A DNA stretch of 64,000 bases from Spirosoma fluviale (lineage in GTDB: Bacteria; Bacteroidota; Bacteroidia; Cytophagales; Spirosomataceae). A model generated the notes under the pieces. It had not been told where the DNA came from. It saw only the letters and a program-made list of their open reading frames with translations, and searched no databases. Position 1 is the stretch's first letter; each line of letters begins with the position of its first letter. Where the stretch lies: the NCBI RefSeq assembly GCF_900230225.1, contig NZ_OCNH01000001.1, positions 620,001-684,000 on the forward strand, written 5' to 3'. Of this stretch, positions 12,836 to 29,322 are shown one piece after another. A program made the translations under genes and the position numbers.

Positions 12836-12851
12836 AACAAATGCGGTGCCA
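12836..12851 (-). promoter_or_regulatory. Sigma-54-like -24/-12 promoter, unit 1
   Basis: On the minus strand it reads TGGCACCGCATTTGTT. It matches the sigma-54 pattern TGGCAC-N5-TTGCW except for T in place of C at the -12 GC. It is 28 bp upstream of the padR start and aligns with equivalents at 18162, 25055 and 29217. Confidence 0.65.
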
Positions 12852-12914
12852 ACTACCCAAAAGTGCCTTGATTGCTCAGAATCGAACTAATTATTGTATG
12901 CAGGATAAGTCAAC

Positions 12915-12952
12915 TGTCCGTTTCTGGACAGGTGTTGTGCCTAAAACGGACA
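12915..12952. promoter_or_regulatory. Tandem TGTCC-N6-GGACA operator pair, unit 1
   Basis: Site 1 at 12915-12930 is TGTCCGTTTCTGGACA, a perfect 5-bp inverted repeat. Site 2 at 12936-12952 is TGTGC-N7-GGACA, weaker. A 5-bp gap separates them. Site 1 begins 64 bp from the outer edge of the sigma-54-like element, as in unit 2. Likely an enhancer for an NtrC-type activator (inference). Confidence 0.6.
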
Positions 12953-12981
12953 AGGCAACCCGAACATCGGGTTGCCTTGTC
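12949..12981 (-). terminator. Strong stem-loop terminator after the 13016 permease
   Basis: A 15-bp perfect inverted repeat (12949-12963 with 12967-12981) with a 3-nt loop, followed on the minus strand by CGTTTTAGG. It ends the two-permease unit, and its far arm overlaps operator site 2 of unit 1 by four bases. Confidence 0.7.
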
Positions 12982-13015
12982 AAAAGATAACAGTCTAAAC
13001 CAGCCTGATTGTCGC

Positions 13016-15388
13016 TTACTCCGCACTTCGCAAACTTTTCACCGGGTTCATCAAAGCGGCTTTGATGCTCTGGAAGCTGACCGTTAATTGAGCAATGCCA
13101 ATGGCGATCAGGCCCGCCAGCGCAAAGACCCACCATTCAATGTCGATTCGGTAAGCGAAGTCTTTGAGCCATTGGTGCATGGCCCACCAGGCCAGGGGTG
13201 AGGCAATCAAGATGGCAATCAGCACCAGTTTCAAAAAGTCTTTCGACAGCAGCACGACGATGTTGGGCACCGACGCTCCAAGCACTTTACGCACGCCGAT
13301 TTCTTTGGTGCGTTGCTCAGCGGTAAACATGGCCAGGCCAAACAAACCGAGACAGGCAATGAAAATGGCGATAATCGCAAAGGCGTTTGCCAGGGTGCCA
13401 ATCAGGGTTTCGCTTTTATACTGCTCCCGGAAACTCTCGTCGGCGAATGTATAATCGAATGGGTAGGCTGGATTAAACTGTTTGGCCAGCCGCTCCATGC
13501 TCTTGAGCGCCTTTTCGGTCTGACCGGGTTGCGTGCGAACAAGCAGGACCGTATTGGTCGAATCCAATCGTAAAATGAGGGGCTCGATGGCTACGCGCAG
13601 GGAATTGATGTGAAAATTTTTGATCAGCCCAACAATCTTCCCCGACTTACCCCAGAATTTCAAATCCTGACCAACGGCGCTCTTCATGCCCGGCGTGGAT
13701 GCGCCCATTCGACGGGCGGCTTCTTCGTTGACGATGTAATTGGTGCTGTCGGTTATGGTGCCCTTTGAAAAGTCGCGGCCATCGAGCAGCTTAATCTTCA
13801 TGGTTGAGATGAAGTCGTAGCTGATCGGAAGCTGATTGAACAGGGTTTTATCGCCTTCGGGTTTGCCTTTCCACTCAACGCCGGTGGTCGAACTGCCAAT
13901 TTGCATCGGGTCGTTGCCTGCCGATGATACGGATTGAATACCTGGTGCTTGTAGAAGTTCTTCCCGGAACGCGTCGAACCGTTTGGGTAAATCGCCTTCG
14001 AGGTCCATATAAACGACATTTTCACGGTCAAGGCCCAGGTTTTTGGTGCGGATATAATCCACCTGCCGACCAGCAATCAAGGTTCCAATAATTAACAATA
14101 ATGAGAGAGCAAACTGGAAAACTACTAACCCTTGTCGGAAGAATACGGCACCCGCCGTAAATCGTAGCGTACCTTTCAACACCTTTACCGGTTGAAGCGA
14201 CGATAGAAATAAGGCCGGGTAACTACCAGAAATGAGTCCGGTTATCAGGGCTAATCCAAACAGGGTGAGCCAGTACAGCGGGTTGGCGTACTGGATTTCT
14301 ATATGTTTCTCCGTTAAGGTATTGAAGCTTGAAAGCAGCACCTGCACCAGAACTATCGCAATCAGCAATGAGAAGAGGGCCGTCAATACTGCTTCGCCAA
14401 CAAACTGACCGACCAGATACGAACGTTCGGCCCCTACAACCTTCCGAATGCCTACTTCCTTCGCCCGTTTGGCCGAGCGGGCCGTAGCCAGATTCATGAA
14501 GTTGATGCAGGCAATAATGAGCAGGAAGATAGCGACAATGGTGAAAATCCGGACGTACTCAATCCGCCCGCCATCGGGCTTGCCATTGGTGAATTTCGAT
14601 TGCAGGTAGGCTTTCTCGTAGGGAAATAGGAACGTCGTGATGGTCGTCACGTTCTTGTCATGCTTCTTAATAAAGTTTAGGATTTTGTCATTCAGAGCGT
14701 CGATATCCGCATTTGGGTGCAGGAGCGCGTAGGTTCGGATGCCGTTATTGTCCCAGCCTTCCAGCCACTTGTTCTCCTTCTCGTACGGCGCTTCGGGCAA
14801 CACAAAATCAAATTTAAGAGAGGATGTTTCGGGTATGTCCTTCACCACCCCCGTTACTTTGTGATCCTCCTTATTATCGACCCGAACCATCCGCCCCAGT
14901 ACATCCGTTCGACCAAAAAGCTTTTGCGCTGCTTTTTCGGAGATAACGATAGACGTTGGCTCCGCAATGGCCGTTTTTGGGTCGCCATACGCAAGGGGGA
15001 AGGAGAATATCTGGAATAAATCTGGGCTCGAATACCGCCCTTTTTCTTTGTACCCTTTGTCGCCCACCGAAAGCAGGTGCTCTTCCTGCCAGGTAACTTT
15101 AACTGTCCGTTCAACTTCGGGCACTTCAGCTTTCAGGGCAAAAGCCAGCGGTCCGGGTGTTGAGGGGGTGGTACTGATGTCGTTGCCTGTCCATTGCTGG
15201 TTCTCCAATACTTCATAAATGTTTGGCCCGTTGGCGTGGAACTGGTCGATGCTGCGTTCGTCCTGCACCCAGAGTAAAATGAGCAGGCTGCTGGTCATGC
15301 CGAGAGCAAGGCCCAGCACATTGATAAAGGAGAAGGTTTTGCTCCGGGCAATGTTGCGCCAGGCGATTTTGAGATAGTTTCGGAACAT
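13016..15388 (-). CDS. ABC-type permease without prefix domain (FtsX/MacB-like), unit 2 second gene
   Basis: Starting at the ATG of MFRNYLKIAWRNIARSKTFSF the protein has 790 residues. A 28-codon upstream extension is out of character and derives from repeat-like DNA. It has the same core as its neighbours: helix 1, a MacB-like periplasmic domain, FtsX helices with RAKEVGIRKVVGAERS, a second periplasmic domain, QRTKEIGVRKVLGAS, and the tail NPVKSLRSAE. Unlike the other five permeases it has no soluble prefix domain, so it may depend on the prefix of the permease encoded just upstream (15527-18115) to form a hetero-pair. It lies 138 bp downstream of that gene and is probably read from the same promoter. 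No ATPase is adjacent. Confidence 0.87.
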   Translation of the reverse strand: MFRNYLKIAWRNIARSKTFSFINVLGLALGMTSSLLILLWVQDERSIDQFHANGPNIYEVLENQQWTGNDISTTPSTPGPLAFALKAEVPEVERTVKVTWQEEHLLSVGDKGYKEKGRYSSPDLFQIFSFPLAYGDPKTAIAEPTSIVISEKAAQKLFGRTDVLGRMVRVDNKEDHKVTGVVKDIPETSSLKFDFVLPEAPYEKENKWLEGWDNNGIRTYALLHPNADIDALNDKILNFIKKHDKNVTTITTFLFPYEKAYLQSKFTNGKPDGGRIEYVRIFTIVAIFLLIIACINFMNLATARSAKRAKEVGIRKVVGAERSYLVGQFVGEAVLTALFSLLIAIVLVQVLLSSFNTLTEKHIEIQYANPLYWLTLFGLALITGLISGSYPALFLSSLQPVKVLKGTLRFTAGAVFFRQGLVVFQFALSLLLIIGTLIAGRQVDYIRTKNLGLDRENVVYMDLEGDLPKRFDAFREELLQAPGIQSVSSAGNDPMQIGSSTTGVEWKGKPEGDKTLFNQLPISYDFISTMKIKLLDGRDFSKGTITDSTNYIVNEEAARRMGASTPGMKSAVGQDLKFWGKSGKIVGLIKNFHINSLRVAIEPLILRLDSTNTVLLVRTQPGQTEKALKSMERLAKQFNPAYPFDYTFADESFREQYKSETLIGTLANAFAIIAIFIACLGLFGLAMFTAEQRTKEIGVRKVLGASVPNIVVLLSKDFLKLVLIAILIASPLAWWAMHQWLKDFAYRIDIEWWVFALAGLIAIGIAQLTVSFQSIKAALMNPVKSLRSAE

Positions 15389-15461
15389 AATTACCAGCGG
15401 TTGAGGACACAGTTGATCCAAAGACGCAGGAAATTCTGTTTCGTTGCTTTTGTGTCTCACC

Positions 15462-15525
15462 TTGCGTCCCACCTCGCGTCAGCCAAAACCATCCGGTCGG
15501 GAGACGCAACGTATTGCGTCTCTAC
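15462..15525. repeat. GAGACGCAA palindromic repeat, copy between two permease genes
   Basis: This copy has the conserved order CTTGCGTCCC, then GCGTCAGCCAAAACCATCCG, then GAGACGCAACGTATTGCGTC, which also occurs in inverted order at 19199-19288 and 26087-26168. It fills most of the gap between the 13016 and 15527 permease genes and ends two bases before the latter's stop codon. Confidence 0.75.
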
Positions 15526-15526
15526 A

Positions 15527-18115
15527 TCATTCAGACCGTAAACTTTTTACCGGATTCATCAACGCGGCTTTGATACTTTGGAAGCTTACTGTTAGCAAGG
15601 TAACTAACAAGGCACCGGCACCAGATACGGCAAAGACCCACCACGAAATATCGGTGCGGTACGTATACTCCTGGAGCCAGTTGTGCAGGAAATACCAGGC
15701 AATAGGCGTTGCCATGCCGAAGCCAATCAGAGCTAAAAACACAAAGTCTTTAGAGAGCAATCCCCATAGATTCAGCACCGATGCGCCCAGCACTTTGCGG
15801 ACGCCAATTTCTCGGGTACGTTGCTCGGCCATAAACGAAGCCAGTCCAAAAATGCCAAGGCACGAAATGAAAATGGCCAGCGTGGCAAAAATGAAAGCCA
15901 ATGTGCCAATGCGCTCTTCGGTACGGAACTTCTGATCGTACTCGTCATCGACAAAGGTGTAGTTGAACGGGGCAGCGGGCAGATGCTCTTTCAATACGTC
16001 GCCAATTGTTGCCAGGGCGTCCTGCGGGCTTTGGGTTGGGTTGAGTCGCATGGTCAGGAACTGGCCGTGTTTCGGGCTGATGAAAAAGACCGACGGTTGG
16101 GCTGGCTCATAGGGCGAATCCATGACCATATCCCGTATTACACCGATAACGTGAAAGCTAACATTGAAACCATTGCCATTCCAGGAAATAGTTTTGCCAA
16201 GAACGTCTTTCATACCCATAAACGCTACGGCCGATTCGTTCAGGACGATTCCCAGCGAGTCAGAAGCCAGTTGTCTGGAGAAATCGCGTCCTTGTTTGAA
16301 CGTCCAGCCAACCGTTTTGCCAAACTCATGCGATATGCCAATTGTCCCGAAATTGATTTGCAACGTCGGGTCTTTACCCGCCCAGTCGAAGCCACCGTTG
16401 GTCGACTGAACTTCGGTTAGCGGACTGGCCGATTCGGCTACCTCGAGTACCGCTCCCGATCTGATCAACTCGTTCCGAACCGTTTCCCGGTGTTTTTCGT
16501 AGTGGGGCACATTCAGAACCATCGAAATCAGCCCGTTCCGGTTGTAGCCAATGGGGCGGTTCCTGGCAAACTGAATTTGCCGGTAAACGATCAGAGTACC
16601 GATAATGAGAGTAATTGAGACGGTAAATTGCAAAACGACCAGCAACCGTCGGGGTGTAGCAATGCTCTTGCTGGTTTGTATCGCACCTTTCAGGACTGCA
16701 ACGGGCCGAAATGATGACAGGTAAAGGGCGGGATAGCTACCAGCTATGAGTCCTGTCAGCAAAGCAAATCCGGCCCCCAACACCCAGAACAGGGGATTTG
16801 TAAAGGGAGTCACCATCTGTTTGTCGGCGATCTGATTGAAAAACGGCATTGATAGAAAAACCAGCCCGATAGCCACCCCAAACGCGAGCGTAACTACCAG
16901 TAGCGATTCACCAAAGAACTGAGCAACCAACTCCTGTCGCCGGGAGCCAATGGCTTTTCGAATACCCACTTCTTTGGCCCGATTAACCGAGCGGGCCGTA
17001 CTGAGGTTCATGAAGTTGATGCAGGCCAGTAGCAACACAAACAGGCCAATCAGACCAAATAACCAGACAAACTGAATTCGGCCACCTTCGTTGACGCCGT
17101 TTTTCCAGTCTGAATACAAATGCCAGCGCGACATAGGATACAGGAGTACTTCGGGCTTCCGGGCAACATCAGCACTGGTTTTGCCAACAAGCAGGTTCCT
17201 GATCGTTGCCGATACGTCGGCGAAACTGACCGAGGGAGCCAACTCAATAAAAACTTCAAACGAGGTATTCGTCCAGTCGTCTTTGGCTTCGTTTACCCAA
17301 TCAGTCGACGCGGCATATAGGTCCCAGGGAGCTATGAACTGTACATCGGCAAAGCTGCTCCCCGCTGGTAGATCGTCGTAGACACCCGTAACGTTGACCG
17401 TCATGGTATTGTCAATTGTCAGGGTCTTGTGCAACGGGTTTTCCTCGCCAAACAGGGTCTTCGCCAGCGATGCCGACAGCAGTATAGAGGCTGGTTCGGT
17501 AAGGCCCGCCCGACTGCCCCGGCGCATGGTTAGCGAAAGCATTTCGGGGGCTTCGGGCGTCATGAATTTGCCGCTCTTCGAAAACACCTGGTCCGATACG
17601 CTGATGGTGTGCAGGCTTGTCCACCATGACAGGACAACACGCTTAAACGGCCCACCGTTGCGGCTATCGCCGTAGCTAGTTTTCAGACTTTGAGCCAACG
17701 GTATTGGCAGACCCATTCTGGTGTCTGTTTCGCCATTTACCGTTCGGTTGCGCATGACCTGCGCAATGCGGTCGTAATGCTGGAAGGACTTGTTGAACGA
17801 TAACTCGTCATAGATCCATAAACCAATCAGGATCGCTATGGTCATACCGACTGCTAATCCACCAATATTGATAAACGAATAGCCTTTGTTGCGAATCAGA
17901 TTCCGCCAGGCTATTTTGATATAATTGGAAAGCATATCCGTGCTGAATAAGGATAGTCGAGGGTTATCTCTGGGTTGTCGTTTGATCAGCGAAGGCCGCA
18001 TTAGACTTAACACGTCTTTTGTATACCGCCATCGAGCCTGGCGCAGACCCACCGACTTAAGTCGTTCGGAGAACAGTTCGTTTAAATCATCTTCCCGCCA
18101 CTTCTTCAAACTCAC
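15527..18115 (-). CDS. ABC-type permease with truncated prefix domain (FtsX/MacB-like), unit 2 first gene
   Basis: The frame opens at a GTG at 18115 and gives 862 residues. The first ten residues come from padR DNA read in another frame. Then the second half of the prefix domain follows (DDLNELFSERLKSVG, QARWRYTKDVL, aligning with GDLHEEF and RARWRYWWDVL of the neighbours). The helical PPRWADQLL part is missing. The core starts at about Met 61 (MLSNYIKIAWRNLIRNKGYSFINIGG), which at 17935 is the alternative start. Both coupling motifs (RAKEVGIRKAIGSRRQ and QRTREIGVRKVLGAS) and the NPVKSLRSE tail are intact, so the transporter core is not obviously broken. See the padR remnant at 18087-18134. 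Confidence 0.83.
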   Translation of the reverse strand: MSLKKWREDDLNELFSERLKSVGLRQARWRYTKDVLSLMRPSLIKRQPRDNPRLSLFSTDMLSNYIKIAWRNLIRNKGYSFINIGGLAVGMTIAILIGLWIYDELSFNKSFQHYDRIAQVMRNRTVNGETDTRMGLPIPLAQSLKTSYGDSRNGGPFKRVVLSWWTSLHTISVSDQVFSKSGKFMTPEAPEMLSLTMRRGSRAGLTEPASILLSASLAKTLFGEENPLHKTLTIDNTMTVNVTGVYDDLPAGSSFADVQFIAPWDLYAASTDWVNEAKDDWTNTSFEVFIELAPSVSFADVSATIRNLLVGKTSADVARKPEVLLYPMSRWHLYSDWKNGVNEGGRIQFVWLFGLIGLFVLLLACINFMNLSTARSVNRAKEVGIRKAIGSRRQELVAQFFGESLLVVTLAFGVAIGLVFLSMPFFNQIADKQMVTPFTNPLFWVLGAGFALLTGLIAGSYPALYLSSFRPVAVLKGAIQTSKSIATPRRLLVVLQFTVSITLIIGTLIVYRQIQFARNRPIGYNRNGLISMVLNVPHYEKHRETVRNELIRSGAVLEVAESASPLTEVQSTNGGFDWAGKDPTLQINFGTIGISHEFGKTVGWTFKQGRDFSRQLASDSLGIVLNESAVAFMGMKDVLGKTISWNGNGFNVSFHVIGVIRDMVMDSPYEPAQPSVFFISPKHGQFLTMRLNPTQSPQDALATIGDVLKEHLPAAPFNYTFVDDEYDQKFRTEERIGTLAFIFATLAIFISCLGIFGLASFMAEQRTREIGVRKVLGASVLNLWGLLSKDFVFLALIGFGMATPIAWYFLHNWLQEYTYRTDISWWVFAVSGAGALLVTLLTVSFQSIKAALMNPVKSLRSE

Positions 18116-18134
18116 CTAAGTAGGTTCCCTTCAT
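18087..18134 (-). pseudogene. Remnant of padR fused to the permease gene by deletion
   Basis: From the ATG at 18134 the frame reads MKGTYLGEFEEVAGR and stops at 18087. The first 12 codons match the start of the three intact PadR proteins (MKRTYLGEFEE). The match ends at GAAGAAGTGG and continues straight into DNA for the permease prefix. The rest of padR (about 100 codons) and the first 30 or so codons of the permease are gone. The 15-codon remnant overlaps the GTG start of the permease. Confidence 0.8.
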
Positions 18135-18161
18135 GGCCGTTCATTAGTTATGTATATGTAT

Positions 18162-18177
18162 AACAAATGCCCGACCA
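18162..18177 (-). promoter_or_regulatory. Sigma-54-like -24/-12 promoter, unit 2
   Basis: On the minus strand it reads TGGTCGGGCATTTGTT, keeping the -24 GG and the GCATTTGTT block of the other units. It lies 27 bp upstream of the padR remnant start, the same place as in intact units, so the promoter outlived the padR deletion. Confidence 0.55.
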
Positions 18178-18184
18178 AACTAAA

Positions 18185-18217
18185 AAAAGTGCCATCCCGG
18201 TTAGGAATGGCACTTTT
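18185..18217 (-). terminator. Intrinsic terminator of hxlR
   Basis: Perfect 11-bp stem AAAAGTGCCAT (18185-18195) with its complement (18207-18217). On the minus strand it is followed by a run of seven T, so it should end transcription of the upstream hxlR gene before the unit 2 promoter. Confidence 0.8.
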
Positions 18218-18240
18218 AATGATTTAAGTCACGAGGATAA

Positions 18241-18277
18241 TGTCCAGAAACGGACAAATTCTGTACGCATCTGGACA
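18241..18277. promoter_or_regulatory. Tandem TGTCC-N6-GGACA operator pair, unit 2
   Basis: Site 1 at 18241-18256 is TGTCCAGAAACGGACA. Site 2 at 18262-18277 is TGTACGCATCTGGACA. A 5-bp gap separates them, so centres are 21 bp apart, two helical turns. Site 1 begins 64 bp from the outer edge of the sigma-54-like element. The pair lies in the 3' untranslated region of hxlR. Confidence 0.65.
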
Positions 18278-18285
18278 GATAAGTC

Positions 18286-18687
18286 TTAGGTAACTACCTT
18301 GTCTTTTCCGAGGATTCGGGCGCGGTGCTGGATGCCCCAGGTTCGTAATGCTTCGATGATGCTGTTCAGCGACTGGCTGTATTCCGTTAGTTCATATTCG
18401 ACGGTAACGGGCATGGTCGCGTAGACATGCCGCACAGCAAACTCGTTCATCTCCAGTTCCTTTAGCTCTTTGCTGAGAACTTTAGCCGTAATACCCGAAA
18501 CCAGACGCTGCAATTCGCCAAAGCGCTTGGGGCCACCGCTCATGGCAATGATGATCGGTAATTTCCATTTACCACTTAAAACATAGAGCGCATCCTGAAC
18601 GGCCTGTAAGCTTTGGGTGCATTCGGCCCCAGAATGGATTTTTCCGGTACCAAGTCTGGGAGGAGCGGCCTCAACGATTGTGTTCAT
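18286..18687 (-). CDS. HxlR-family transcriptional regulator
   Basis: The 133-residue protein has the HxlR/MarR-like winged helix: CTQSLQAVQDALYVLSGKWKLPIIIAM, GGPKRFGELQRLVSGITAKVLSKELKELEMNEFAVRHVY (recognition helix), VTVEYELTEYSQSLNSIIEALRTWG (wing and dimer helix). The first Cys, at about residue 23, lies in the position used for redox or electrophile sensing in some HxlR proteins (known for the family, not shown here). It is divergent from the doxX-like gene with a 153-bp shared promoter region and most probably controls it. Confidence 0.92.
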   Translation of the reverse strand: MNTIVEAAPPRLGTGKIHSGAECTQSLQAVQDALYVLSGKWKLPIIIAMSGGPKRFGELQRLVSGITAKVLSKELKELEMNEFAVRHVYATMPVTVEYELTEYSQSLNSIIEALRTWGIQHRARILGKDKVVT

Positions 18688-18840
18688 AGATTAAAGATAG
18701 TGAGCTATATCGAGTCGGCCAGCTGGTATCCTGGAGGAAACTGGTATCCTTTAGTATAGTACTTACAAATTGATAGCTGGTTTAACTACGTTTGCTGTTA
18801 CCAAACAAAGGCCGGAATGGCTGTTTAAATTGTACTAATC

Positions 18841-19200: not shown

Positions 19201-19288
19201 AGACCGCACCGGCGGACCGGCAATACCTTGCGTCTCCCTGACCGGATGGTTTTGGCTGACGCATAGGAGACGCAACGTATTGCGTCTC
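19199..19288. repeat. GAGACGCAA palindromic repeat, copy between doxX and a permease
   Basis: Contains CAATACCTTGCGTCTC, the linker CTGACCGGATGGTTTTGGCT, and GAGACGCAACGTATTGCGTCTC. The left arm is degraded. From the linker onward it is identical to the copy at 26087-26168, and identity runs on into the first codons, from the 3' end, of the two flanking permease genes. Confidence 0.8.
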
Positions 19289-19292
19289 TACA

Positions 19293-21950
19293 TTATTCGG
19301 ACCGCAACGATTTCACTGGGTTAATCAAAGCGGCTTTGATGCTTTGAAAACTAACTGTTAGCAGAGCAATCGTAGTGGTCAGGCCACCTGCCAGCGCAAA
19401 CACCCACCAGGCAATGTCAATCTTGTAAGCGAAATCCTGGAGCCATTTGTTCATCGCCCACCAGGCTATGGGCGAGGCAATCAGGATAGAAACCAGTACC
19501 AGTTTTAGAAAATCTTTTGAGAGTAAAGTAATGATGCTGGTTACCGATGCACCGAGCACTTTTCGAACGCCAATTTCTTTAGTTCGCTGTTCAGCCGTGA
19601 AGGCGGCCAAGCCGAATAGGCCCAGGCAGGCAATGAATAAGGCAAATCCCGTGAAAGCACTAAACAGGTTGGCTAGCCGGGCTTCAGATTTGTAAATGTT
19701 ATTGAAGGTCTCGTCCAGAAAATAATATTCAAACGGTTTCTCAACCTGTAACTGTCGATACGTTGTCTCGATGCGCCCGACCGTTTGTTGCAGGTCAGCA
19801 CCGGGTTGAATACGGACGTATAAACTACCGCCATATTGGGCCATTGCGCTGGCCGTGTCTTTGGCAACGAAGAGAGCCAGGGGTTCGTTGGAGTCGTTGA
19901 TGTCCGTAAAGTAAAAATTACGCATCACACCCACGACTTCGCTCTTTTCTGAACCCAAGGATAGGCGCTGGCCCAACGGTTGATTGCCAAACCCCATTTT
20001 TCGTACCGCTATTTCGTTGAGTACAACGGTGTTGGGTGCAGCCAACTGTGTTGAGTCGGGTTTGCTTTTCCAGGGAATCTGGAGTGTTTCGGCGAATTGA
20101 TCGTCTACGGACAACACATGGATGCTGATATCTTTTTTGGTTACCGGCGATTGCGTAAAATAAATACTTCCCCCTTCCTTGTAGAGTACCGACGATGCAG
20201 CAGATACCCGTTCGACACCGGGTATCTGCCGCAGGTCATGTTTGAATCTACCGTATTGATTGGTGAGCGAAGCATCGACCGGCACAACCAGAACCCGGTT
20301 TTTGTACAAGCCTAGTTTTCGGTTTTGCAAGTGCTGCACTTGCTGGTAGATAAGAATACTGCACCCAATCAGACCAATCGACACCGTAAGTTGAACAACC
20401 GTGAAAATCCGTCGAACGGTAGGGCCACCCTGTCCGGTTGTTAGCTGCCCTTTCAATACCTTGACCGGATTAAACGACGATAGAAGGAGGGCGGGATAGC
20501 TGCCTGAAAGCAGTACACAGGTTATCAGTAAGAGAAGTGCGGCCAGTCCAAATGTGGGGCTGTATATAAACGACGGATCAATATCAAGTTTCAGGAGCTG
20601 GTAGAATGGTGGCCGAAGCGCCTTTACCAGCACCAGCGCCAACAGGAAAGCGAGCAGCGTAATGAATATGGATTCACCATAAAATTGCCCGGCCAGTTCG
20701 CTGCGGGCGGCTCCCATTACTTTTCTGACGCCCACTTCCCGAGCCCGTTGGGTAGCCCGTGCCGTGGTCAGACTCATGTAGTTGATTAACGCCAGCAACA
20801 ACGTCAGGGCGGCAATACCCAGGAAAATGGTCAGGTAGCGAGAATTAGCTGTATCGCCGAAATTCATTCCTAAATGAACACTTGTCAGTGGATCAATAAT
20901 ATACCGGCACCCTTTCGGGTTGGCTCCGGACGCTTTTATGATTGAAGGCAGATTGCGAAGGATCGTCGCCGTATCGGCTGCAGACCGTAGCAGGAAGAAT
21001 GTTTGAAAATGGCCTCCCTGTACGTACTGACTGTTCAACGCTACCTCGTCGTCCTTAAGGAACCCATTCTGGATACGTTCAATGGCCGGATGACTGTTCA
21101 GCGAAGCGACAAAGTCGAATTGGACGGTTGAGTTGGATGGCGGATTTTTCAGCACGCCCGTTACTTCAAACCGGAGTTTATTATTGTACGTAATCGTTTT
21201 TCCGATTGGGTCTTCGCGACCAAAATAGCGTTCGGCGGTGCGTTCGGTCAAGAGAACGGTCATGGGCCGAACGAGAGCCGTTTGGGCTGACCCTTCGCTA
21301 AAGGGAAAGGAGAAAACGCTCAGAAATGACGGATCGGCCAGAATGAATTTACCTTCAAAGAACTTACGTTCCGGGCTGGTTTTAATCACCACGCGCCCCG
21401 GTGTCGTTGCGATACGGACAAACCCCAGCACACCGGCATTCGCTTCCTGAACAGCCGGGCCAAATCGTGCAGACATCCGGTCGGACTGGATTTCCTGCTC
21501 CCCAAACTTCATTCGGGTATAAACCCGGAAAATCCGGTCGGCGTTGGTATGGAACTGATCGTAGGTTCGTTCGTGAATCACAAACAGCAGGATAAGCAGA
21601 CTTACGGCAATGCCCAGTGCCAGACCGATGATGTTGATGAACGAGTACGTCTTATGCTTGACGAGGTTTCTAAAGGCGATGGTGAAATAGTTGCGGAACA
21701 TAGCTGCGTTTAGAAAAGGGGTTGACGAATAATCGGAAGGTTTGCGATTTCGGTTAAATAACCAGTCGGCAAGCGAGAGTTTAACGAATCCCAGTACATC
21801 CCACCAATAGCGCCATTGCGCCCGCCGTTCGCCAATGCGTCTGACTTGATAGTCAAATTCTTCGTGCAGGTCGCCCTGAACCTCTTCCAGTCGGTGAGGA
21901 GAGCAGAAGAAGCGGAGTAGGCGGTTGGCTAAAGGGGGTGGCGTTTTCAT
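19293..21950 (-). CDS. ABC-type permease with prefix domain (FtsX/MacB-like), unit 3 second gene
   Basis: With start at 21950 the protein has 885 residues. Prefix domain at about 5-65 (PPLANRLLRFFCSPHRLEEVQGDLHEEFDYQVRRIGERRAQWRY-type sequence). Core from MFRNYFTIAFRNLVKHKTYSFINI. Coupling motifs RAREVGVRKVMGAARSELAGQF and QRTKEIGVRKVLGAS; tail NPVKSLRSE. No padR precedes it; only a palindrome-filled gap of 87 bp separates it from the next permease upstream, so it is probably the last gene of the unit 3 operon. Its prefix is nearly the same as that of its operon partner (HRLEE, GDLHEEF, QVRR, GERRA), which suggests tandem duplication. Confidence 0.87.
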   Translation of the reverse strand: MKTPPPLANRLLRFFCSPHRLEEVQGDLHEEFDYQVRRIGERRAQWRYWWDVLGFVKLSLADWLFNRNRKPSDYSSTPFLNAAMFRNYFTIAFRNLVKHKTYSFINIIGLALGIAVSLLILLFVIHERTYDQFHTNADRIFRVYTRMKFGEQEIQSDRMSARFGPAVQEANAGVLGFVRIATTPGRVVIKTSPERKFFEGKFILADPSFLSVFSFPFSEGSAQTALVRPMTVLLTERTAERYFGREDPIGKTITYNNKLRFEVTGVLKNPPSNSTVQFDFVASLNSHPAIERIQNGFLKDDEVALNSQYVQGGHFQTFFLLRSAADTATILRNLPSIIKASGANPKGCRYIIDPLTSVHLGMNFGDTANSRYLTIFLGIAALTLLLALINYMSLTTARATQRAREVGVRKVMGAARSELAGQFYGESIFITLLAFLLALVLVKALRPPFYQLLKLDIDPSFIYSPTFGLAALLLLITCVLLSGSYPALLLSSFNPVKVLKGQLTTGQGGPTVRRIFTVVQLTVSIGLIGCSILIYQQVQHLQNRKLGLYKNRVLVVPVDASLTNQYGRFKHDLRQIPGVERVSAASSVLYKEGGSIYFTQSPVTKKDISIHVLSVDDQFAETLQIPWKSKPDSTQLAAPNTVVLNEIAVRKMGFGNQPLGQRLSLGSEKSEVVGVMRNFYFTDINDSNEPLALFVAKDTASAMAQYGGSLYVRIQPGADLQQTVGRIETTYRQLQVEKPFEYYFLDETFNNIYKSEARLANLFSAFTGFALFIACLGLFGLAAFTAEQRTKEIGVRKVLGASVTSIITLLSKDFLKLVLVSILIASPIAWWAMNKWLQDFAYKIDIAWWVFALAGGLTTTIALLTVSFQSIKAALINPVKSLRSE

Positions 21951-21957
21951 GGCGTTG

Positions 21958-22035
21958 GGCAAAGGGGTAAGGGCACAGGGAAGGGTGATGACTACGAACA
22001 GTTTACTCGTTGCCCCATGCCCTTACCCTTTTGCC
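21958..22035. repeat. Inverted repeat between two permease genes
   Basis: Arms 21958-21975 and 22018-22035 (GGCAAAGGGGTAAGGGCA type) pair with one mismatch around a 42-nt loop. The element fills the gap between the permease stop at 22038 and the start at 21950. Confidence 0.7.
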
Positions 22036-22037
22036 AT

Positions 22038-24692
22038 TTATTCGCTCCGTAGGCTTTTCACCGGATTCATCAGGGCCGCTTTGATACTTTGGAAGATGAC
22101 CGTCAGCAGGGCAATGGCCAGTGCCAGGAAACCGGCCAGGGCAAACATCCACCATTCAATGTCGATTCGGTACGCAAAGTCATGAAGCCATTGATTCATG
22201 GCCCACCAGGCGATGGGTACGGCAATGGCAATGGCTATAATAACCAGTTGAATAAAGTCTTTCGCCAGAAGTTGAATGACGCTGGCAACACTAGCCCCCA
22301 ACACTTTACGAACGCCAATTTCGCGGGTGCGAACCTGTGCCGTATATGCCGCCAGGCCGAACAAACCAAGGCACGAAATCAGGATGGCAATTGACGAGAA
22401 TATTGTGAATAGAAGCCCGGTTTGCTGTTCGGATTTGTAGAGATTATTGAATACGTCGTCCAGGAAAGAATAGGCAAATGGAAAATCAGCATTGTATTGC
22501 TTCCAGGACTGCTGAGCCGAAGCTATGGCATGTTCAGCATCCTTGCCGGTTGTTTTGATATAAATAGCGCCCATGTCCTGGGGTTCGTAGTAAAAAATAG
22601 AGGGCTCAATCGTCTGCTTCATCGACGCAAAATGGAAGTCCTTCACAACGCCGATAATGGTGCCATTGTGTTTCCAGAGTCTAAACCGCTTCCCGATGGG
22701 ATCTTTAAGGCGAGCGGCTTTAACTGCCGTTTCGTTCAGGATAAAATGCAGCGAATCGGCTACGGCCCCCGTAAAATTAGCCCCCTGTTGCAGCTTCATG
22801 TTGAAGAAGGGAATGAAATCCTTATCGATGGCGACAGGGTGCATCATCATGGTTTCGCCCTGTTCTTTTCCATCCCATTCATTATCGCCGGTCTGCCCGC
22901 CCAGCACAATAATATTGGCGTTGGCGCGGGTAACGGCCGCTACACCAGGCTGGTTCAGCAAGTCGGCTTTCACCGCGTCGTAGTGTTTGCGCATATCCCG
23001 CATAAAGAAAGCGAACACATGCGTTTTGTCGTAACCCAACTCCTTCGAGCGGATGTATTGCAGTTGATTATTGATGATAAACGTACCGGCAATCAGGATA
23101 ACCGAAACGGAAAACTGGATGACGACCAGTAACTTGCGAAAGGAGGCTTCACTCAAACGGGCCGATACTTTCCCCTTCAGCGCTTTGAGCGGCTCAAACG
23201 AGGATAGCAACACGGCCGGGTAGATACTCGATGCAACCAGCGTACCGGCAATGGTTAGCCCGATAATCTGCCAAATATGGTAATCGCTGAAATTAAGCAC
23301 GAGTTCTTTGCCCGATAGTTCATTATAAAAGGGAAGTAAGCCAAATAGCAGACCAAGAGCCAGCGCGGCTGCCAGCGAAAAAAGCAGTGTAGTTTCGACC
23401 AGAAACTGCATGAACAATTGACTCCGGGCGGCCCCCACAATTTTCCGCATGCTCACTTCTTTAGAGCGCAGCAGCGAGCGGGCCGTAGAGAGGTTCACGT
23501 AGTTGATACAGGCAATCGCTAAGATCAGCAGGGCAATAATGGAAAACATCCTGACGGTTTCTATACCCCCCTCGGTGCCGTCGGCTTTGTACAGGTGCAT
23601 ACTGGGAAGCGGTTGCAACAGGTAGGTAAGGTCGGTATCATTGGGTTTATTGCGCAGGTGAATAGTTCGTAGTTTAGTCGCCAGGCTGGCAACCGATGTG
23701 TTTGGCTGGAGCAACAAATAGGTATTGTACTGAAACTGCGAGAAATCATTGTCCATGTTTTTCCCCTCTTTGTTTCCTTCGTAGATATTCTTGAAGAACA
23801 GGGAGATTGGCAGAAACATATCGCCCTTGATCGACGAGTTTTTTGGGAAGTCCCGGATAATGCCACTGACCGTAAACGCGGTATTATCAGTAGCTGCCAG
23901 TACTTTGCCAATGGGATTTTCATTGCCGAAATACCGTTTGGCGGTCGTCTCGGTAAGGACGACCGAGTTGTTATCCGGAAAGGGTTTGGCCGGATTGCCC
24001 TGGATCAGGTTAAAGTCAAATACCGAAAACAGGCTTGGGTCGGTAAAGAAAGTCTTCTGCTCGTTAATGGTTTTATCCTTATACCTGAACAGGGTGTAGG
24101 CGTAATTCTCCGTTAGCCGAACGGCATCTTTTACCTCGGGTGTTTCTCGTTTGGCGAAGCCAGCGATGGGCGCTACGGTAGTTGTCCAGATTTGCCGACT
24201 ACTGCCGGTACCCGCCCAGTTTTCGAGTCGATAAATAGAGGACGATTGGGTATGGAACCGGTCGAAACTTAACTCATCCTGCACCCACAACAAGATCAAA
24301 ATGCCAACGGCCAGACCGACGGTTAGTCCCGAAATGTTGATGAAGGAGTAAAACTTGTTCTTAACCAGATTGCGCCAGGCGGTTCTGAAATAGTTGCGGA
24401 TCATAGCAGGGTTGAGGAAAGAAATGGTCTGGTGATTTGGTGAATAGTGATTGCGCTTAGCAGGATGAACCGGGTAAGCTGCGGGTCTTCGTTTAATGGC
24501 AAATGGTTTAACAAATCCCAGTACATCCCACCAATAGCGCCATCGCGCCCGCCGTTCGCCAACGCGTCTGACCTGATAGGTAAACTCCTCGTGCAGGTCG
24601 CCCAGGGTTTCTTCCAGCCGGTGGGGCGCACAGAAGAACGTTAGAAGTTGGTCGGCCCAACGGGGTGGCTTCGGACTTGCGGGCGTTTTCAT
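22038..24692 (-). CDS. ABC-type permease with prefix domain (FtsX/MacB-like), unit 3 first gene
   Basis: The 884-residue protein starts with the full prefix domain (PPRWADQLLTFFCAPHRLEE, GDLHEEFTYQVRRVGERRARWRY), followed by a basic linker and the core from MIRNYFRTAWRNLVKNKFYSFINISG. The first coupling motif reads RSKEVSMRKIVGAARSQ, slightly diverged, and the second VRTREIGVRKVLGAS. Tail NPVKSLRSE. Its ATG overlaps the padR stop by four bases (ATGA), so the two are translationally coupled. As for all permeases here, no ATP-binding subunit lies in the window; the ATPase must be supplied in trans if the protein works as an ABC exporter. Confidence 0.88.
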   Translation of the reverse strand: MKTPASPKPPRWADQLLTFFCAPHRLEETLGDLHEEFTYQVRRVGERRARWRYWWDVLGFVKPFAIKRRPAAYPVHPAKRNHYSPNHQTISFLNPAMIRNYFRTAWRNLVKNKFYSFINISGLTVGLAVGILILLWVQDELSFDRFHTQSSSIYRLENWAGTGSSRQIWTTTVAPIAGFAKRETPEVKDAVRLTENYAYTLFRYKDKTINEQKTFFTDPSLFSVFDFNLIQGNPAKPFPDNNSVVLTETTAKRYFGNENPIGKVLAATDNTAFTVSGIIRDFPKNSSIKGDMFLPISLFFKNIYEGNKEGKNMDNDFSQFQYNTYLLLQPNTSVASLATKLRTIHLRNKPNDTDLTYLLQPLPSMHLYKADGTEGGIETVRMFSIIALLILAIACINYVNLSTARSLLRSKEVSMRKIVGAARSQLFMQFLVETTLLFSLAAALALGLLFGLLPFYNELSGKELVLNFSDYHIWQIIGLTIAGTLVASSIYPAVLLSSFEPLKALKGKVSARLSEASFRKLLVVIQFSVSVILIAGTFIINNQLQYIRSKELGYDKTHVFAFFMRDMRKHYDAVKADLLNQPGVAAVTRANANIIVLGGQTGDNEWDGKEQGETMMMHPVAIDKDFIPFFNMKLQQGANFTGAVADSLHFILNETAVKAARLKDPIGKRFRLWKHNGTIIGVVKDFHFASMKQTIEPSIFYYEPQDMGAIYIKTTGKDAEHAIASAQQSWKQYNADFPFAYSFLDDVFNNLYKSEQQTGLLFTIFSSIAILISCLGLFGLAAYTAQVRTREIGVRKVLGASVASVIQLLAKDFIQLVIIAIAIAVPIAWWAMNQWLHDFAYRIDIEWWMFALAGFLALAIALLTVIFQSIKAALMNPVKSLRSE

Positions 24693-25027
24693 AAGCTGGT
24701 TACGGGTTTAAACGGATTGACCAGGCGGCTCCACAGGCTGACACGCACTTCCTGAATTTCCTGTAACGTCCGCCGACCGTAGGCCGTAACGGTAAAGAGT
24801 CGTTTCCGACGGCCACCGCGTTCGGCGGTCGGTTCACCCATTTCAGATTTCACCATGCCTTTATCTTCCAGCCGTTGCAGGGCGGCATGAATCTGGTTCA
24901 AACGCACCGAACGGCCCGTCTGCTCGATAATTTCGTGGGTAAGTGCCACTCCGTATGCCTGCCCTTCCAGCACGGCCACGGTGAGTAGTACAATCTCTTC
25001 AAACTCGCCTAAATAGGTCCGTTTCAT
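24689..25027 (-). CDS. PadR-family transcriptional regulator, unit 3
   Basis: The 112-residue protein has the same fold and length as the other two PadRs: MKRTYLGEFEEIVLLTVAVL, GQAYGVALTHEIIEQTGRSV, NQIHAALQRLEDKGMVKSEMG, AERGGRRKRLFTVTAYGRRTL. The recognition-helix region (LNQIHAALQRL) differs from unit 1 (FSTVHTTLQRL), so the regulators may have separate DNA or ligand specificity. It overlaps the permease start by four bases. Upstream on its strand are the best sigma-54-like promoter of the window and a tandem operator pair; the secreted isomerase gene at 25246 diverges from the same region. Confidence 0.92.
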   Translation of the reverse strand: MKRTYLGEFEEIVLLTVAVLEGQAYGVALTHEIIEQTGRSVRLNQIHAALQRLEDKGMVKSEMGEPTAERGGRRKRLFTVTAYGRRTLQEIQEVRVSLWSRLVNPFKPVTSL

Positions 25028-25054
25028 AGCTGAGTATTAGTTCTATTTTTGCTG

Positions 25055-25070
25055 AGCAAATGCCTTGCCA
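25055..25070 (-). promoter_or_regulatory. Sigma-54 promoter, unit 3
   Basis: On the minus strand it reads TGGCAAGGCATTTGCT, matching TGGCAC-N5-TTGCW at the -24 GG and the -12 GC with exact spacing. It lies 27 bp upstream of the padR start, giving a leader of roughly 15 nt. Confidence 0.75.
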
Positions 25071-25132
25071 GAAGAGAAAAAGGCGGTTTCAAGATTACAA
25101 AGGCAGTTTTTGGAAAGCAACTGAGAGTGTGC

Positions 25133-25169
25133 TGTCCAGATTCGGACAAAGTTTGTACGGTATGGGACA
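25133..25169. promoter_or_regulatory. Tandem TGTCC-N6-GGACA operator pair, unit 3
   Basis: Site 1 at 25133-25148 is TGTCCAGATTCGGACA. Site 2 at 25154-25169 is TGTACGGTATGGGACA. They are 5 bp apart, and site 1 begins 63 bp from the outer edge of the sigma-54 element. Layout is the same as in units 1 and 2. Confidence 0.7.
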
Positions 25170-25245
25170 GATCGACGACCGATGCACAGCGGGTAAAGCG
25201 ACAAGCCCACATTCTTTTGTTTGAAAACAAACCCCTGACGTTTTT

Positions 25246-26091: not shown

Positions 26092-26168
26092 AGACGCAAT
26101 ACGTTGCGTCTCCCTGACCGGATGGTTTTGGCTGACGCATAGGAGACGCAACGTATTGCGTCTCTACA
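26087..26168. repeat. GAGACGCAA palindromic repeat, best complete copy
   Basis: Arms 26087-26112 and 26143-26168 are perfect 26-bp reverse complements, and each arm is itself a palindrome (GAGACGCAATACGTTGCGTCTC-like). Linker CTGACCGGATGGTTTTGGCT. It fits exactly between two convergent genes, supplies the stop codon of the isomerase gene and abuts that of the permease. It can form cruciform or two-way terminator structures. Confidence 0.85.
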
Positions 26169-28853
26169 TTATTCGGACCGCAACGATTTCACCGGGTTCG
26201 TCAAGGCAGCTTTTATACTCTGGAAACTGACAGTCACTAATGCAATGCTGATTGCCAGAACACCCGCCAGGGCAAATACCCACCAGTTGAGGTCGACTTT
26301 GTAGACGAAATCCTTGAGCCACTGGTGCATGGCCCACCAGGCAATAGGGGAGGCAAGGATCAGGGCAATAAAGACCAGCTTCAGGAAGTCTTTGGTGAGC
26401 AGGGCTACTATACTGGCGACCGATGCGCCTAATACCTTTCGGACACCAATCTCTTTTGTTCGCTGCTGCGCCGTGAACGTCGCCAGACCGAATAAGCCCA
26501 TGCACGAAATCAGAATGGCGATGGCCGTTGCCATATTGACAAGCTGTCCGGTTTTTTGCTCTTTCTCATAGAGTTTGGCAATGGAATCGTCCAGAAAGGT
26601 GTACTCGAATTTTTTGTCGGGATAGACGGATTTCCAGGCTTGTTCAAGACTGGCCAGGGTCGTTTTCAAATCACCAACCTGTTTGCCCTGGGTAGCGAGT
26701 TTAACGCTAATATTGCGGGCCTGTGGCATGTTGGCGATAAACACCGGGCCAATTTTTTCGTGAAACGACTGCTCATGAAAATCGGCTACCACACCCACAA
26801 CCGGAAAGGCTTTGTCCTGAAATCGGATGAGCTTGTTAAGGACATCGGCTGGTTTTTTGAAGCCTAACGCCTTCGCATAGGTTTCGTTGATGACCAGTTC
26901 GCGGAGGGAGTCGCTTTTGAGGTAATTCCGGCCAGCCAGAAGTCGAAGTTGATAAAGCGGAATAAAATTCTCGTCGCCTATCTTGGCTGAAACGTCCATT
27001 TCGACGTCTTTTTTCTTATCCCTGTATGTCAGTTTGGTCACCATAAAGGCCTGCCCCATGGGTGGGAACCACTCCATTGTAACCCGCTCAACACCCGCTA
27101 ACTGCTTTATCTTTTGCGCCAGTACAGGTCCCTTATCACCCCAACCGGGGCGGATCGACACAATGGCATTCGTAGAAAAACCAAGGTCTTTGTTTCGCAT
27201 GAAGTTAAGCTGTCGGCTCACCATAAGCGTGCCAATGATAAACACCAGCGACACCGTGAACTGAAAGACGATCAGCCCTTTTCTGAGATTCCCGTTCTCA
27301 CCGCCTTTGCTGGTCGTCTGCCCTTTCAATGTTAAGGCGGGCACAAACGACGACAGCATCCAGGATGGATAGAAGCCGGATAGCAGCGAGGTGGTTATCG
27401 TGACGAGAAATAGAAAGATCAACGTTTGCCAACTGAACAAATCGACCGTAAGTCCTTCGGGCGTTAGCGTTTGGAATAGGCTGAGAATTGGGTGAACAAG
27501 CAGTAGCGAAATGAGTACGGCAATGAGCGTTAGTAAAGCCGTTTCGCTCAGAAACTGAAAAATTAAATTGGCCCGGCTACTCCCCATCACTTTCCGAATG
27601 CCGGTTTCTTTGGCCCGTTGCACCGATTGGGCTGTGGCCAGATTGATAAAGTTGATAGCGGCAATGAGCAGAATAAACGCGGCAATGGCCATGAGGCCGT
27701 AGAGCGTGGGCAAATGCGCTTTCCGGGAATAATTGTCGTCATACTCATCGTTGAAGTGAAGGTCGGACAGGGGTTGCAGAGCAGGAGTAAATTGCAGCTC
27801 CATGTTCTTGGTAAAGTGCGTTTTGCCGAACCGCTGAAGTTGAGCAGTGAACTGCTCGGGTGTGGCACCCTGAGGTAGTTTAACAAACGCCTGCGAGGCA
27901 GACCAGATGTCTGTCCACTGGTCGAGGTTGATGCTCTGTTTGAGCTTACTGGCCCGGATGGTGGCGAATGAGATAAAGTCAGTGAAGTTGAAATCGGATG
28001 GCTGCACCCATTCTTTTACAATACCAGCCACACTCACCCGCACCGAATCTTCATAGATGACCTCTTTACCCAGTATGTGATCGAGGGGAATGCTGCCGAA
28101 ATACGTGCGCGCTTTTTGTTCGGACAAGACAACTTTGAACGGCTCATTCAGCGCTGTTTGGGGATTGCCCGCCAGCCATTCATACCTGAAAATGTCGAAA
28201 AACTGCGGGTCTACGACGACCAGTTCATCGTGTCGGCTACTCTCAAATCGCTTCGGTTTTTCCTGCCCCGTTGGGATGAGTACATCTGACGAGATATTAT
28301 GAAAAGCCGCCACCGTTTCCAGTCCCGTAATCTCCTCCCGAATGGCTTTCGGAACTGCATTGGGGACAAAACCCACCGGGTGTTTTTCGCCCGACTTGCC
28401 ATATTGGGATTCGCCTATCAGCCGATAGATCCGTTCGCTGTCGGGATGGAAGGTGTCGTAGCTGAGTTCGTAATTGGTGATGAGGTAAATAACCAGACAG
28501 GCCGTTATCCCCAGCGTAAGTCCGAACAGGTTAATCAGCGTACTGACCTTATGCCGGGTCAGGTTTCGGAGCGAGGTTTTGAGGTAGTTGCGTAGCATAA
28601 TTGACGAGAATAAACCGGGGGAAGAATAATGTTCAGGTTGCCGTTTCAGGGTAAAGGGGCGTATGAATTGGACTACATTGAGCCAGTAGCGCCGGTTCGC
28701 TTTCGGTAGGCCAACTTGTTGCACATCGTGGGTGAATCGTTCGTACAAGTCGCCCTGTATCTCTTCCAGCAGGTGGGCGTTACAGAACCATTCGAGCAGC
28801 CGGTCGCCCCAACGGGGTGGTTCGACGGGTTGGGAGGGAGGCCGGGTGTTCAT
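26169..28853 (-). CDS. ABC-type permease with prefix domain (FtsX/MacB-like), unit 4
   Basis: Start at 28853 (MNTRPPSQPVEPPRWGDRLL) gives 894 residues; the frame runs 14 codons further up, inside padR, and was not used. Prefix at about 10-75 (EWFCNAHLLEEIQGDLYERF, LPKANRRYWLNV). Core from MLRNYLKTSLRNLTRHKVST. Coupling motifs RAKETGIRKVMGSSRANL and QRTKEIGVRKVLGAS; tail NPVKSLRSE. The periplasmic domains are the most diverged of the set, which fits a different substrate. The ATG overlaps the padR stop by four bases. The last 30 or so bases are identical to the 3' end of the 19293 permease gene together with the adjoining repeat. Confidence 0.88.
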   Translation of the reverse strand: MNTRPPSQPVEPPRWGDRLLEWFCNAHLLEEIQGDLYERFTHDVQQVGLPKANRRYWLNVVQFIRPFTLKRQPEHYSSPGLFSSIMLRNYLKTSLRNLTRHKVSTLINLFGLTLGITACLVIYLITNYELSYDTFHPDSERIYRLIGESQYGKSGEKHPVGFVPNAVPKAIREEITGLETVAAFHNISSDVLIPTGQEKPKRFESSRHDELVVVDPQFFDIFRYEWLAGNPQTALNEPFKVVLSEQKARTYFGSIPLDHILGKEVIYEDSVRVSVAGIVKEWVQPSDFNFTDFISFATIRASKLKQSINLDQWTDIWSASQAFVKLPQGATPEQFTAQLQRFGKTHFTKNMELQFTPALQPLSDLHFNDEYDDNYSRKAHLPTLYGLMAIAAFILLIAAINFINLATAQSVQRAKETGIRKVMGSSRANLIFQFLSETALLTLIAVLISLLLVHPILSLFQTLTPEGLTVDLFSWQTLIFLFLVTITTSLLSGFYPSWMLSSFVPALTLKGQTTSKGGENGNLRKGLIVFQFTVSLVFIIGTLMVSRQLNFMRNKDLGFSTNAIVSIRPGWGDKGPVLAQKIKQLAGVERVTMEWFPPMGQAFMVTKLTYRDKKKDVEMDVSAKIGDENFIPLYQLRLLAGRNYLKSDSLRELVINETYAKALGFKKPADVLNKLIRFQDKAFPVVGVVADFHEQSFHEKIGPVFIANMPQARNISVKLATQGKQVGDLKTTLASLEQAWKSVYPDKKFEYTFLDDSIAKLYEKEQKTGQLVNMATAIAILISCMGLFGLATFTAQQRTKEIGVRKVLGASVASIVALLTKDFLKLVFIALILASPIAWWAMHQWLKDFVYKVDLNWWVFALAGVLAISIALVTVSFQSIKAALTNPVKSLRSE

Positions 28854-29188
28854 AAGCTGATGACTGGTAAGGCACTTGGCGAAATCGAATCCCACAACTG
28901 GTCGCGCATGGCCCGTATGTCGTGTAGCGCACGGCTACCCAAGGCTGTAACCGAAAACAGTCGTTTCCGCCGGCCGCCCCGTTCGGCGGTGGCTTCGCCC
29001 ATCTGCGACTTAAGCATGCCTTTCTCTTCCAGCCGGTGGAGGGCGGCATGAACGGCACTGATGCTCACGGATCGCCCCGTTTGCCGGTCCAGCTCATCGG
29101 TAATGGCGACCCCGTAAGCCCCTTCATGCAGGACGGCAACCGTTAATAAAACCAGTTCTTCAAACTCACCCAGGTACGTTCGTTTCAT
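28850..29188 (-). CDS. PadR-family transcriptional regulator, unit 4
   Basis: The 112-residue protein: MKRTYLGEFEELVLLTVAVL, GAYGVAITDELDRQTGRSVS, ISAVHAALHRLEEKGMLKSQMG, AERGGRRKRLFSVTALGSRAL. It is the closest relative of the unit 3 regulator by eye. Translational coupling to its permease is by an ATGA overlap. The region upstream carries the same sigma-54-like element and operator pair as the other units and is shared with the divergent TrpF-like gene. Confidence 0.92.
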   Translation of the reverse strand: MKRTYLGEFEELVLLTVAVLHEGAYGVAITDELDRQTGRSVSISAVHAALHRLEEKGMLKSQMGEATAERGGRRKRLFSVTALGSRALHDIRAMRDQLWDSISPSALPVISL

Positions 29189-29216
29189 GCCGAAAACATA
29201 AGATCAACTTTTGTAG

Positions 29217-29232
29217 AACAAATGCTTTGCCA
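29217..29232 (-). promoter_or_regulatory. Sigma-54-like -24/-12 promoter, unit 4
   Basis: On the minus strand it reads TGGCAAAGCATTTGTT, with the -24 GG and the GCATTTGTT block shared with the other units; -12 has GT rather than GC. It is 28 bp upstream of padR. Confidence 0.62.
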
Positions 29233-29286
29233 AGTTCGAAAAACGGCCTATTCAGCTTACAGACGTGGATTTAGTGAAATAGGGTT

Positions 29287-29322
29287 TGTCCGATTTCGTA
29301 CACCGCTGTCCGGTGATGAACA
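29287..29322. promoter_or_regulatory. Tandem operator pair, unit 4
   Basis: Site 1 at 29287-29302 is TGTCCGATTTCGTACA. Site 2 at 29307-29322 is TGTCCGGTGATGAACA. Each has one mismatch to TGTCC-N6-GGACA. The gap is 4 bp and the distance to the promoter 55 bp, slightly shorter than in units 1-3. Confidence 0.55.

Follow-up and report, generated by a model that had tools for sequence, protein, structure and literature searches.

Paired palindromes upstream of sigma-54-type promoters and E57, a candidate activator, at the PadR/permease operons of Spirosoma fluviale

Four units of MacB/FtsX-type permease genes lie in a 64-kb stretch of the Spirosoma fluviale genome (the window, meaning the whole stretch analyzed), and each of them is preceded by a -24/-12-type promoter element with palindromes of the form TGTCC-N6-GGACA further upstream. 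Among the closest described systems is QseF (GlrR)/glmY of Escherichia coli, which, according to the passages of PMC6075780, likewise combines a response-regulator activator, several palindromic upstream sites and a sigma-54 promoter, and is linked to envelope homeostasis. Nevertheless, the QseF sites of those passages have the form TGT-N12-ACA and those described here TGT-N10-ACA, the candidate activator of the Spirosoma sites (E57, see below) reaches 285.2 bits against the GlrR model, whose curated cut-off is 763, and the targets of QseF are not those of the predicted E57 regulon.

The gene content of the units resembles two other systems. In the HAAS-PadR dyads of PSP/Lia-type envelope stress, passages of PMC11237479 place a standalone PadR with a membrane protein, FtsX/MacB and Toastrack partners included, and link Toastrack, PadR and MacB/FtsX proteins with envelope stress. 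Here, PadR accompanies a permease with a prefix domain, and a Toastrack domain is found in the one member scanned of a ~350-aa target family; however, Pfam reports no HAAS domain in the six window permeases, and sigma-54 activator control is absent from those passages. The ADOP permeases with the acidobacterial PadR also show a duplicated MacB/FtsX permease beside a small PadR, but the six window permeases score 258-334 bits against TIGR03434 (cut-off 622.3) and the one window PadR scanned scores 36.4 bits against a cut-off of 101.8. Finally, in the passages of a 2025 survey (PMC12316311), predicted sigma-54 control is enriched for COG0577 antimicrobial-peptide ABC permeases in Bacteroidia, so the link between sigma-54 and permeases in this class is not new. 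These passages give neither an activator nor a palindrome pair for such permeases, and the words "Spirosoma" and "PadR" occur 0 times in the main text of the survey. A literature search, with most subscription journals outside it, gave no match for Spirosoma with sigma-54 and no published description of the regulon, of its candidate activator or of the paired sites with their spacing rule.

The control regions of the four window units consist of the following motif matches:

12836..12851, minus strand: -24/-12-type promoter element of unit 1, TGGCACCGCATTTGTT
12915..12930, no strand: palindrome TGTCC-N6-GGACA of unit 1, with a degenerate partner at 12936-12952
18162..18177, minus strand: -24/-12-type promoter element of unit 2, TGGTCGGGCATTTGTT
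18241..18277, no strand: palindrome pair of unit 2, 21 bp apart
25055..25070, minus strand: -24/-12-type promoter element of unit 3, TGGCAAGGCATTTGCT
25133..25169, no strand: palindrome pair of unit 3, 21 bp apart
29217..29232, minus strand: -24/-12-type promoter element of unit 4, TGGCAAAGCATTTGTT
29287..29322, no strand: palindrome pair of unit 4, 20 bp apart, one mismatch in each member

The four elements had been proposed from the sequence-only reading, and the form TGGNNNNGCATTTGYT was confirmed as exact at all four places on the minus strand (12836, 18162, 25055 and 29217). The distance from palindrome to element, given there as 54-63 bp, was measured as 63, 63, 62 and 54 bp for units 1 to 4. 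The same reading held that twin palindromes precede all four units; this stood for 18241, 25133 and 29287 when imperfect copies were included, but unit 1 has a single good palindrome (12915), its partner carrying one extra base (TGTGC-N7-GGACA). Its description of the 25055 element as an exact sigma-54 match was likewise right for TGGCA and TTGCT, but not for position 6, where A stands instead of C. Exact palindromes were located at 12915, 18241 and 25133, and those with one mismatch at 18262, 25154, 29287 and 29307; these 7 sites compare with 1.85 expected, and 7 was reached in 0 of 100 shuffles. The TGGNNNNGCATTTGYT-type element alone is a weak signal (0.89 expected with up to one mismatch, 4 reached in 3 of 100 shuffles; 12 genome-wide against 3 in the backward control). 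Hence, the signal of these regions comes from the element and the palindromes combined and not from the promoter-like element alone.

In the whole genome (G000; 7.8 Mb in 18 contigs), exact palindromes number 11 (backward control, 4). Three lie in the window, five at C8:628.8-642.6k, which is a second permease array, and one each at C16:272.5k, on C6 and, inside an open reading frame (ORF), on C13. A scan for palindromes near a -24/-12 element, which the sequence-only reading had called for, gave 8 places with TGG-N8-TTG 48-68 bp downstream against 0 in the control, mostly in the permease arrays: three belong to window units, four to the C8 array and one is the C16 site, whereas the C6 and C13 palindromes have no such element. 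Together with window unit 4, C8:629694 and the hlyD operon adjoining the E57 gene, 11 promoters are predicted in this genome. The C8:629694 pair (L037:13694) and its relatives form a sub-class with a different, TGGCATGATCATGG-like -12 box at the same distance. Behind the C16 promoter (L041:10111), of the 55-bp class, no ORF of at least 50 codons was found; many relatives have a ~124-aa protein there, and a gene has perhaps been lost. The idea taken from this place, that short-spacing promoters (54-55 bp) drive small RNAs, was dropped, since 31 other short-spacing promoters precede the ~124-aa protein. Near the C8 array, a 1388-aa ORF with a C-terminal TNT-like domain was also noted (L037:1950-6116).

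The arrangement is widely conserved. Among 59 relative genomes, 36 of the genus and 23 outside it, the pair with 21-bp spacing was present in 35 (32 of the 36 in the genus, plus G036, G040 and G052), and the backward control gave 0 in all 59. From the 181 pairs counted, 153 distinct ones were analyzed for promoters, and 139 had TGG-N8-TTG, that is, the -24 GG and -12 TTG at fixed spacing, directed away from the pair at 43-64 bp, against ~4.6 expected in the zone examined. The distances fall into two classes, 80 promoters at 51-55 bp (51, 1; 52, 11; 53, 26; 54, 19; 55, 23) and 58 at 62-64 bp (62, 5; 63, 33; 64, 20), with one further promoter at 43 bp and none at 56-61 bp; these classes are one helical turn apart. 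Only one inward-pointing TGG-N8-TTG was found in the 50-69 bp bins, and this inward control averages ~1 per 10-bp bin. Across the genus, exact single sites with a promoter numbered 340 (control, 5), and every one of the 36 genomes had at least one; among the 23 genomes outside it, 5 had such sites, and the control gave 2 matches.

All 14 pairs without TGG-N8-TTG were counted as misses, variant boxes included. By eye, 11 of them show TGGCA and a variant -12 box at about the expected position (L037, L075, L100, L107, L139, L152, L166, L175, L184, L194 and L197), L141 has AGC instead of TGG, and L094 and L178 lack a candidate. Separately, an A-tract/GCC dyad, sometimes a near-perfect hairpin, was seen between palindromes and promoter in the long class (e.g., window 18178-18215). 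It recurs at a constant position in this class (58 promoters), according to a consensus made by eye and without a statistic, and this recurrence weakens its explanation as a mere terminator of the upstream operon.

The reading that we consider probable is that of a sigma-54 promoter with upstream E57 sites driving the regulon. Eight strong PF00158 activator genes (E50-E57) were identified in G000, E51 and E54 without an HTH_8 match and E55 without a receiver; five weaker matches (up to 34.8 bits) were set aside as other AAA+ proteins. When 20 kb around each of the eight genes was examined, a site and promoter ahead of an efflux-type operon was found at the E57 and E53 loci only. E57 (C8:702216-703637) is a response regulator with PF00072 receiver, PF00158 AAA+ and PF02954 Fis-type HTH domains above cut-off, and its best matches in 35 other genomes of the genus have 65-95% identity (partial or split in G003, G008 and G012). 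At its locus, the one-mismatch palindrome CGTCCGAAAGCGGACA (C8:700258-700273) stands 54 bp before TGGCATGACTATTGGCA, which precedes HlyD, ABC ATPase and MacB genes. At the E53 locus (L053:9498-17048, contig C4), an operon that includes an OEP and two MacB/FtsX genes is preceded by TGGCACGCTGTTTGGCT, with TGTGCGAAATCGCACA 53 bp further upstream; TGTGC-N6-GCACA was found 51-53 bp before the promoter of E53 operons in 12 of 20 relatives, and the versions with A, C or T in 0. Three further one-mismatch sites (L052, L054 and another in L053), not before such an operon, were taken as chance. From these motif matches, TGTGC-N6-GCACA appears to be the site by which E53 controls the MacB/OEP operon of its own locus. 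The strongest sign that the activator can be told from the half-site is this contrast: E57 goes with TGTCC and its paralogue E53 with TGTGC. The sequence-only reading had suggested looking for an NtrC-type regulator with the same sites near its own gene, and E57 was found in this way; it is the best candidate for the activator presumed to bind the pairs.

Other genera point in the same direction. A scan with E57 gave 582 loci, and the best 80 of them (1.4 Mb in total) were kept. Exact palindromes numbered 25 in them (two control patterns, 2 and 1), and sites of the looser TGTNC form 106 (control, 11). A TGTNC-type site with a promoter was found in 27 of the 80 loci (31 rows; backward template, 0), the matches in L303, L304 and L315 not being of the TGTCC kind. 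In Larkinella, Dyadobacter, Persicitalea, Chitinophaga and Ferruginibacter, the promoter is directed away from the E57 match, ~160-330 bp ahead of it, and the site is often just upstream of the E57-family gene in Larkinella, Dyadobacter and Chitinophaga. In the two loci that were annotated, L269 and L281, HlyD faces the promoter; in L269 the next gene noted is a MacB permease, and in L281, unlike L269, E57 is followed by a histidine kinase gene. Within the comparison set, a pair lies 12-19 kb from E57 in G003, G020, G030 and G031, and the nearest in G000 is ~60 kb away. Twenty further loci of relatives, around E57-like or related activator genes plus two G036 regions, gave exact palindromes in L238, L239, L247, L248 (here 65 bp upstream of the E57 gene), L252 and L253, sites with promoters in L239, L246, L251 and L252 beside the already known pairs in L249-L251, and only chance-like rows in L236, L237 and L254.

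That another of the eight activators, such as E52, E55 or E56, binds the pairs is improbable. All eight coexist in the genome, but the own-genome loci of E50-E52 and E54-E56, unlike that of E57, have no site before a promoter and operon, E57-family loci in other genera also carry the site, and E53 goes with a different half-site.

The genes behind the 139 promoters were assigned to classes by a rough text rule. PadR genes follow 69 (46 with long and 23 with short spacing), a ~124-aa family whose start resembles a signal peptide by eye follows 31, other MacB-type permeases 10, and a ~350-aa family 8; 21 were unclassified. One member of each family was scanned: the ~124-aa protein reached 22.3 for DUF3244, below the cut-off of 25, and the ~350-aa protein 39.7 for Toastrack DUF4097, above the cut-off of 22.9. 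The predicted regulon is therefore wider than the one of PadR/permease operons proposed in the sequence-only reading, with the ~124-aa and ~350-aa families among its targets. Since its targets include PadR/prefix-permease, secreted-looking and Toastrack-domain families, this composition suggests envelope stress as the signal.

This range of targets also bears on the explanation that the palindromes are operators of the local PadR and that an ordinary promoter starts transcription, which we regard as very improbable. PadR-family operators are inverted repeats, and about half of the promoters (69 of 139) precede PadR; yet the same pairs stand before non-PadR genes (31 of the ~124-aa family, 10 MacB and 8 of the ~350-aa family), the sites adjoin E57 orthologues in other genera, and their location is far upstream, with a set distance to TGG-N8-TTG.

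As to the promoter, an rpoN gene, whose presence the sequence-only reading had proposed to check, is found in G000 (PF04552 at C4:455836, 187.8 bits against a cut-off of 22.8), with RRTVAKYREQL, which we take to be the canonical RpoN box. The sigma-54 consensus has the spacing GG-N10-GC, and that of TGG-N8-TTG is equal to it. C predominates at position 4 (126 of the 139 promoters, the other 13 having T), position 5 is A in 106 and position 11 is T in 115. The Bacteroidetes housekeeping -7 box, TAnnTTTG, had 0 full matches in the 139 promoters, and matches in five of its six letters were seen in 7.2%, compared with 4.3% of shuffles. These promoters are predicted to depend on sigma-54. Another explanation, in which a sigma-70-type or ECF factor recognizes the element and the palindromes bind a class-I-type activator, is as improbable as the PadR-operator one: the -12 C is unconserved and class I activation, too, typically shows helical phasing, but TGG-N8-TTG has sigma-54 spacing, E57 as the leading candidate belongs to the AAA+ activators of sigma-54, and the housekeeping -7 box, the one alternative promoter type scanned for, is not enriched.

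Several observations weigh against the sigma-54/E57 reading. The C after TTG at -12 is part of the textbook promoter, and here that base is free (A28, C31, G33 and T47 of 139); the invariance of TGG-N8-TTG is not independent evidence, because the promoters were selected by it, and many pair loci are orthologous or paralogous to each other, so the 139 promoters are not 139 independent events. The loop of E57 and E53 is GAFTDA and not GAFTGA (the other six activators have GAFTGA or GSFTGA), and AFTDA or SFTDA was present in 48 of the 49 motifs found by a simple pattern in the 80 E57-family loci. Among these 80, 53 have no site with promoter, and a more restricted search upstream yielded 14 of 78 (backward template, 3), fewer partly because sites at 64-65 bp were left out. 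No activator gene was found within the 144 loci holding pairs, with the E57 and E53 loci as positive controls. G007 and G010 retain E57 (83%) and have no 21-bp pair (they have 3 and 6 site-plus-promoter matches, with 1 control match each), and the pair is also absent from G037, G039, G045, G054 and G058, whose E57-like genes have 56-59% identity. Among the 20 further loci, no site was found in L240-L245 and L255; the loci without a site include the three from G040 and those from G037, G045 and G047. Taken together, the NtrC-type, sigma-54 reading was supported by most of the tests that could be run, its departures being the missing -12 C and the GAFTDA loop. The arrangement itself is real in its conservation, its spacing and its co-location with the E57 family.

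In the mechanism proposed, E57 dimers would occupy the paired TGTCCG-N4-CGGACA palindromes, which would lie on one face of the DNA because they are two helical turns apart, and would contact the RpoN-polymerase at TGG-N8-TTG, 51-55 or 62-64 bp downstream, opening the promoter. E57 may be phosphorylated by a histidine kinase whose gene lies ~2.4 kb away. The ancestral target was probably the efflux operon next to the E57 gene (HlyD, ABC ATPase and MacB permease); in Spirosoma, the regulon would have expanded to several secreted or envelope proteins and to the window's PadR/prefix-permease arrays. Most of these units begin with padR, whose product probably keeps the operon repressed until a signal comes from the partner permease; the two-layer switch of an activator plus a local PadR, already suggested from the sequence-only reading, is plausible.

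The genes of the four window units are as follows:

12469..12807, minus strand: padR, 112 aa, first gene of unit 1 (Pfam PF03551)
9710..12385, minus strand: MacB_PCD/FtsX permease with prefix domain 2, unit 1 (Pfam and curated model)
18087..18134, minus strand: padR remnant of unit 2, 15 codons and then a stop, overlapping the start of the permease frame (frame reading)
15527..18115, minus strand: MacB_PCD/FtsX permease with partial prefix, unit 2 (Pfam and curated model)
13016..15472, minus strand: permease without prefix domain, second gene of unit 2 (Pfam and curated model)
24689..25027, minus strand: padR, 112 aa, unit 3 (Pfam)
22038..24692, minus strand: permease with prefix domain 2, unit 3 (Pfam and curated model)
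19293..21962, minus strand: permease with prefix domain 2, second gene of unit 3 (Pfam and curated model)
28850..29188, minus strand: padR, 112 aa, unit 4 (Pfam)
26169..28895, minus strand: permease with prefix domain 2, unit 4 (Pfam and curated model)

Pfam gave MacB_PCD and FtsX alone in the six permeases, and the prefix domain 2 model (NF038404) exceeded its 35-bit cut-off in five of them, one partially, with none in 13016-15472. The domain is carried by all three permeases directly after an intact padR; the unit 2 permease, whose padR is a remnant, lacks the first 23 positions of the prefix (model match 24-62 of 62), and the permease at 19293-21962 has the domain and no padR of its own. 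An HxlR-type regulator gene lies at 18286-18687, beside the 18241 pair and between units 2 and 3.

Only tentatively, and as a possibility with the odds somewhat against it, we suggest that Bacteroidota have a separate sigma-54 grammar, with GAFTDA activators (E57 and E53), no -12 C, paired sites at 51-55 or 62-64 bp and the A-tract/GCC dyad in the long register, which in Spirosoma would drive a large envelope-stress regulon, many of its operons having in addition a PadR of their own and a permease as possible sensor of the signal. In the literature searched, descriptions of sigma-54 circuits in this phylum seem to be few. The two paralogous activators, with a common loop variant, a relaxed -12 and different half-sites, form a natural experiment on covariation between the GAFTGA loop and the -12 base, and the family of multi-copy orphan permease operons now has a testable regulator, site and regulon.

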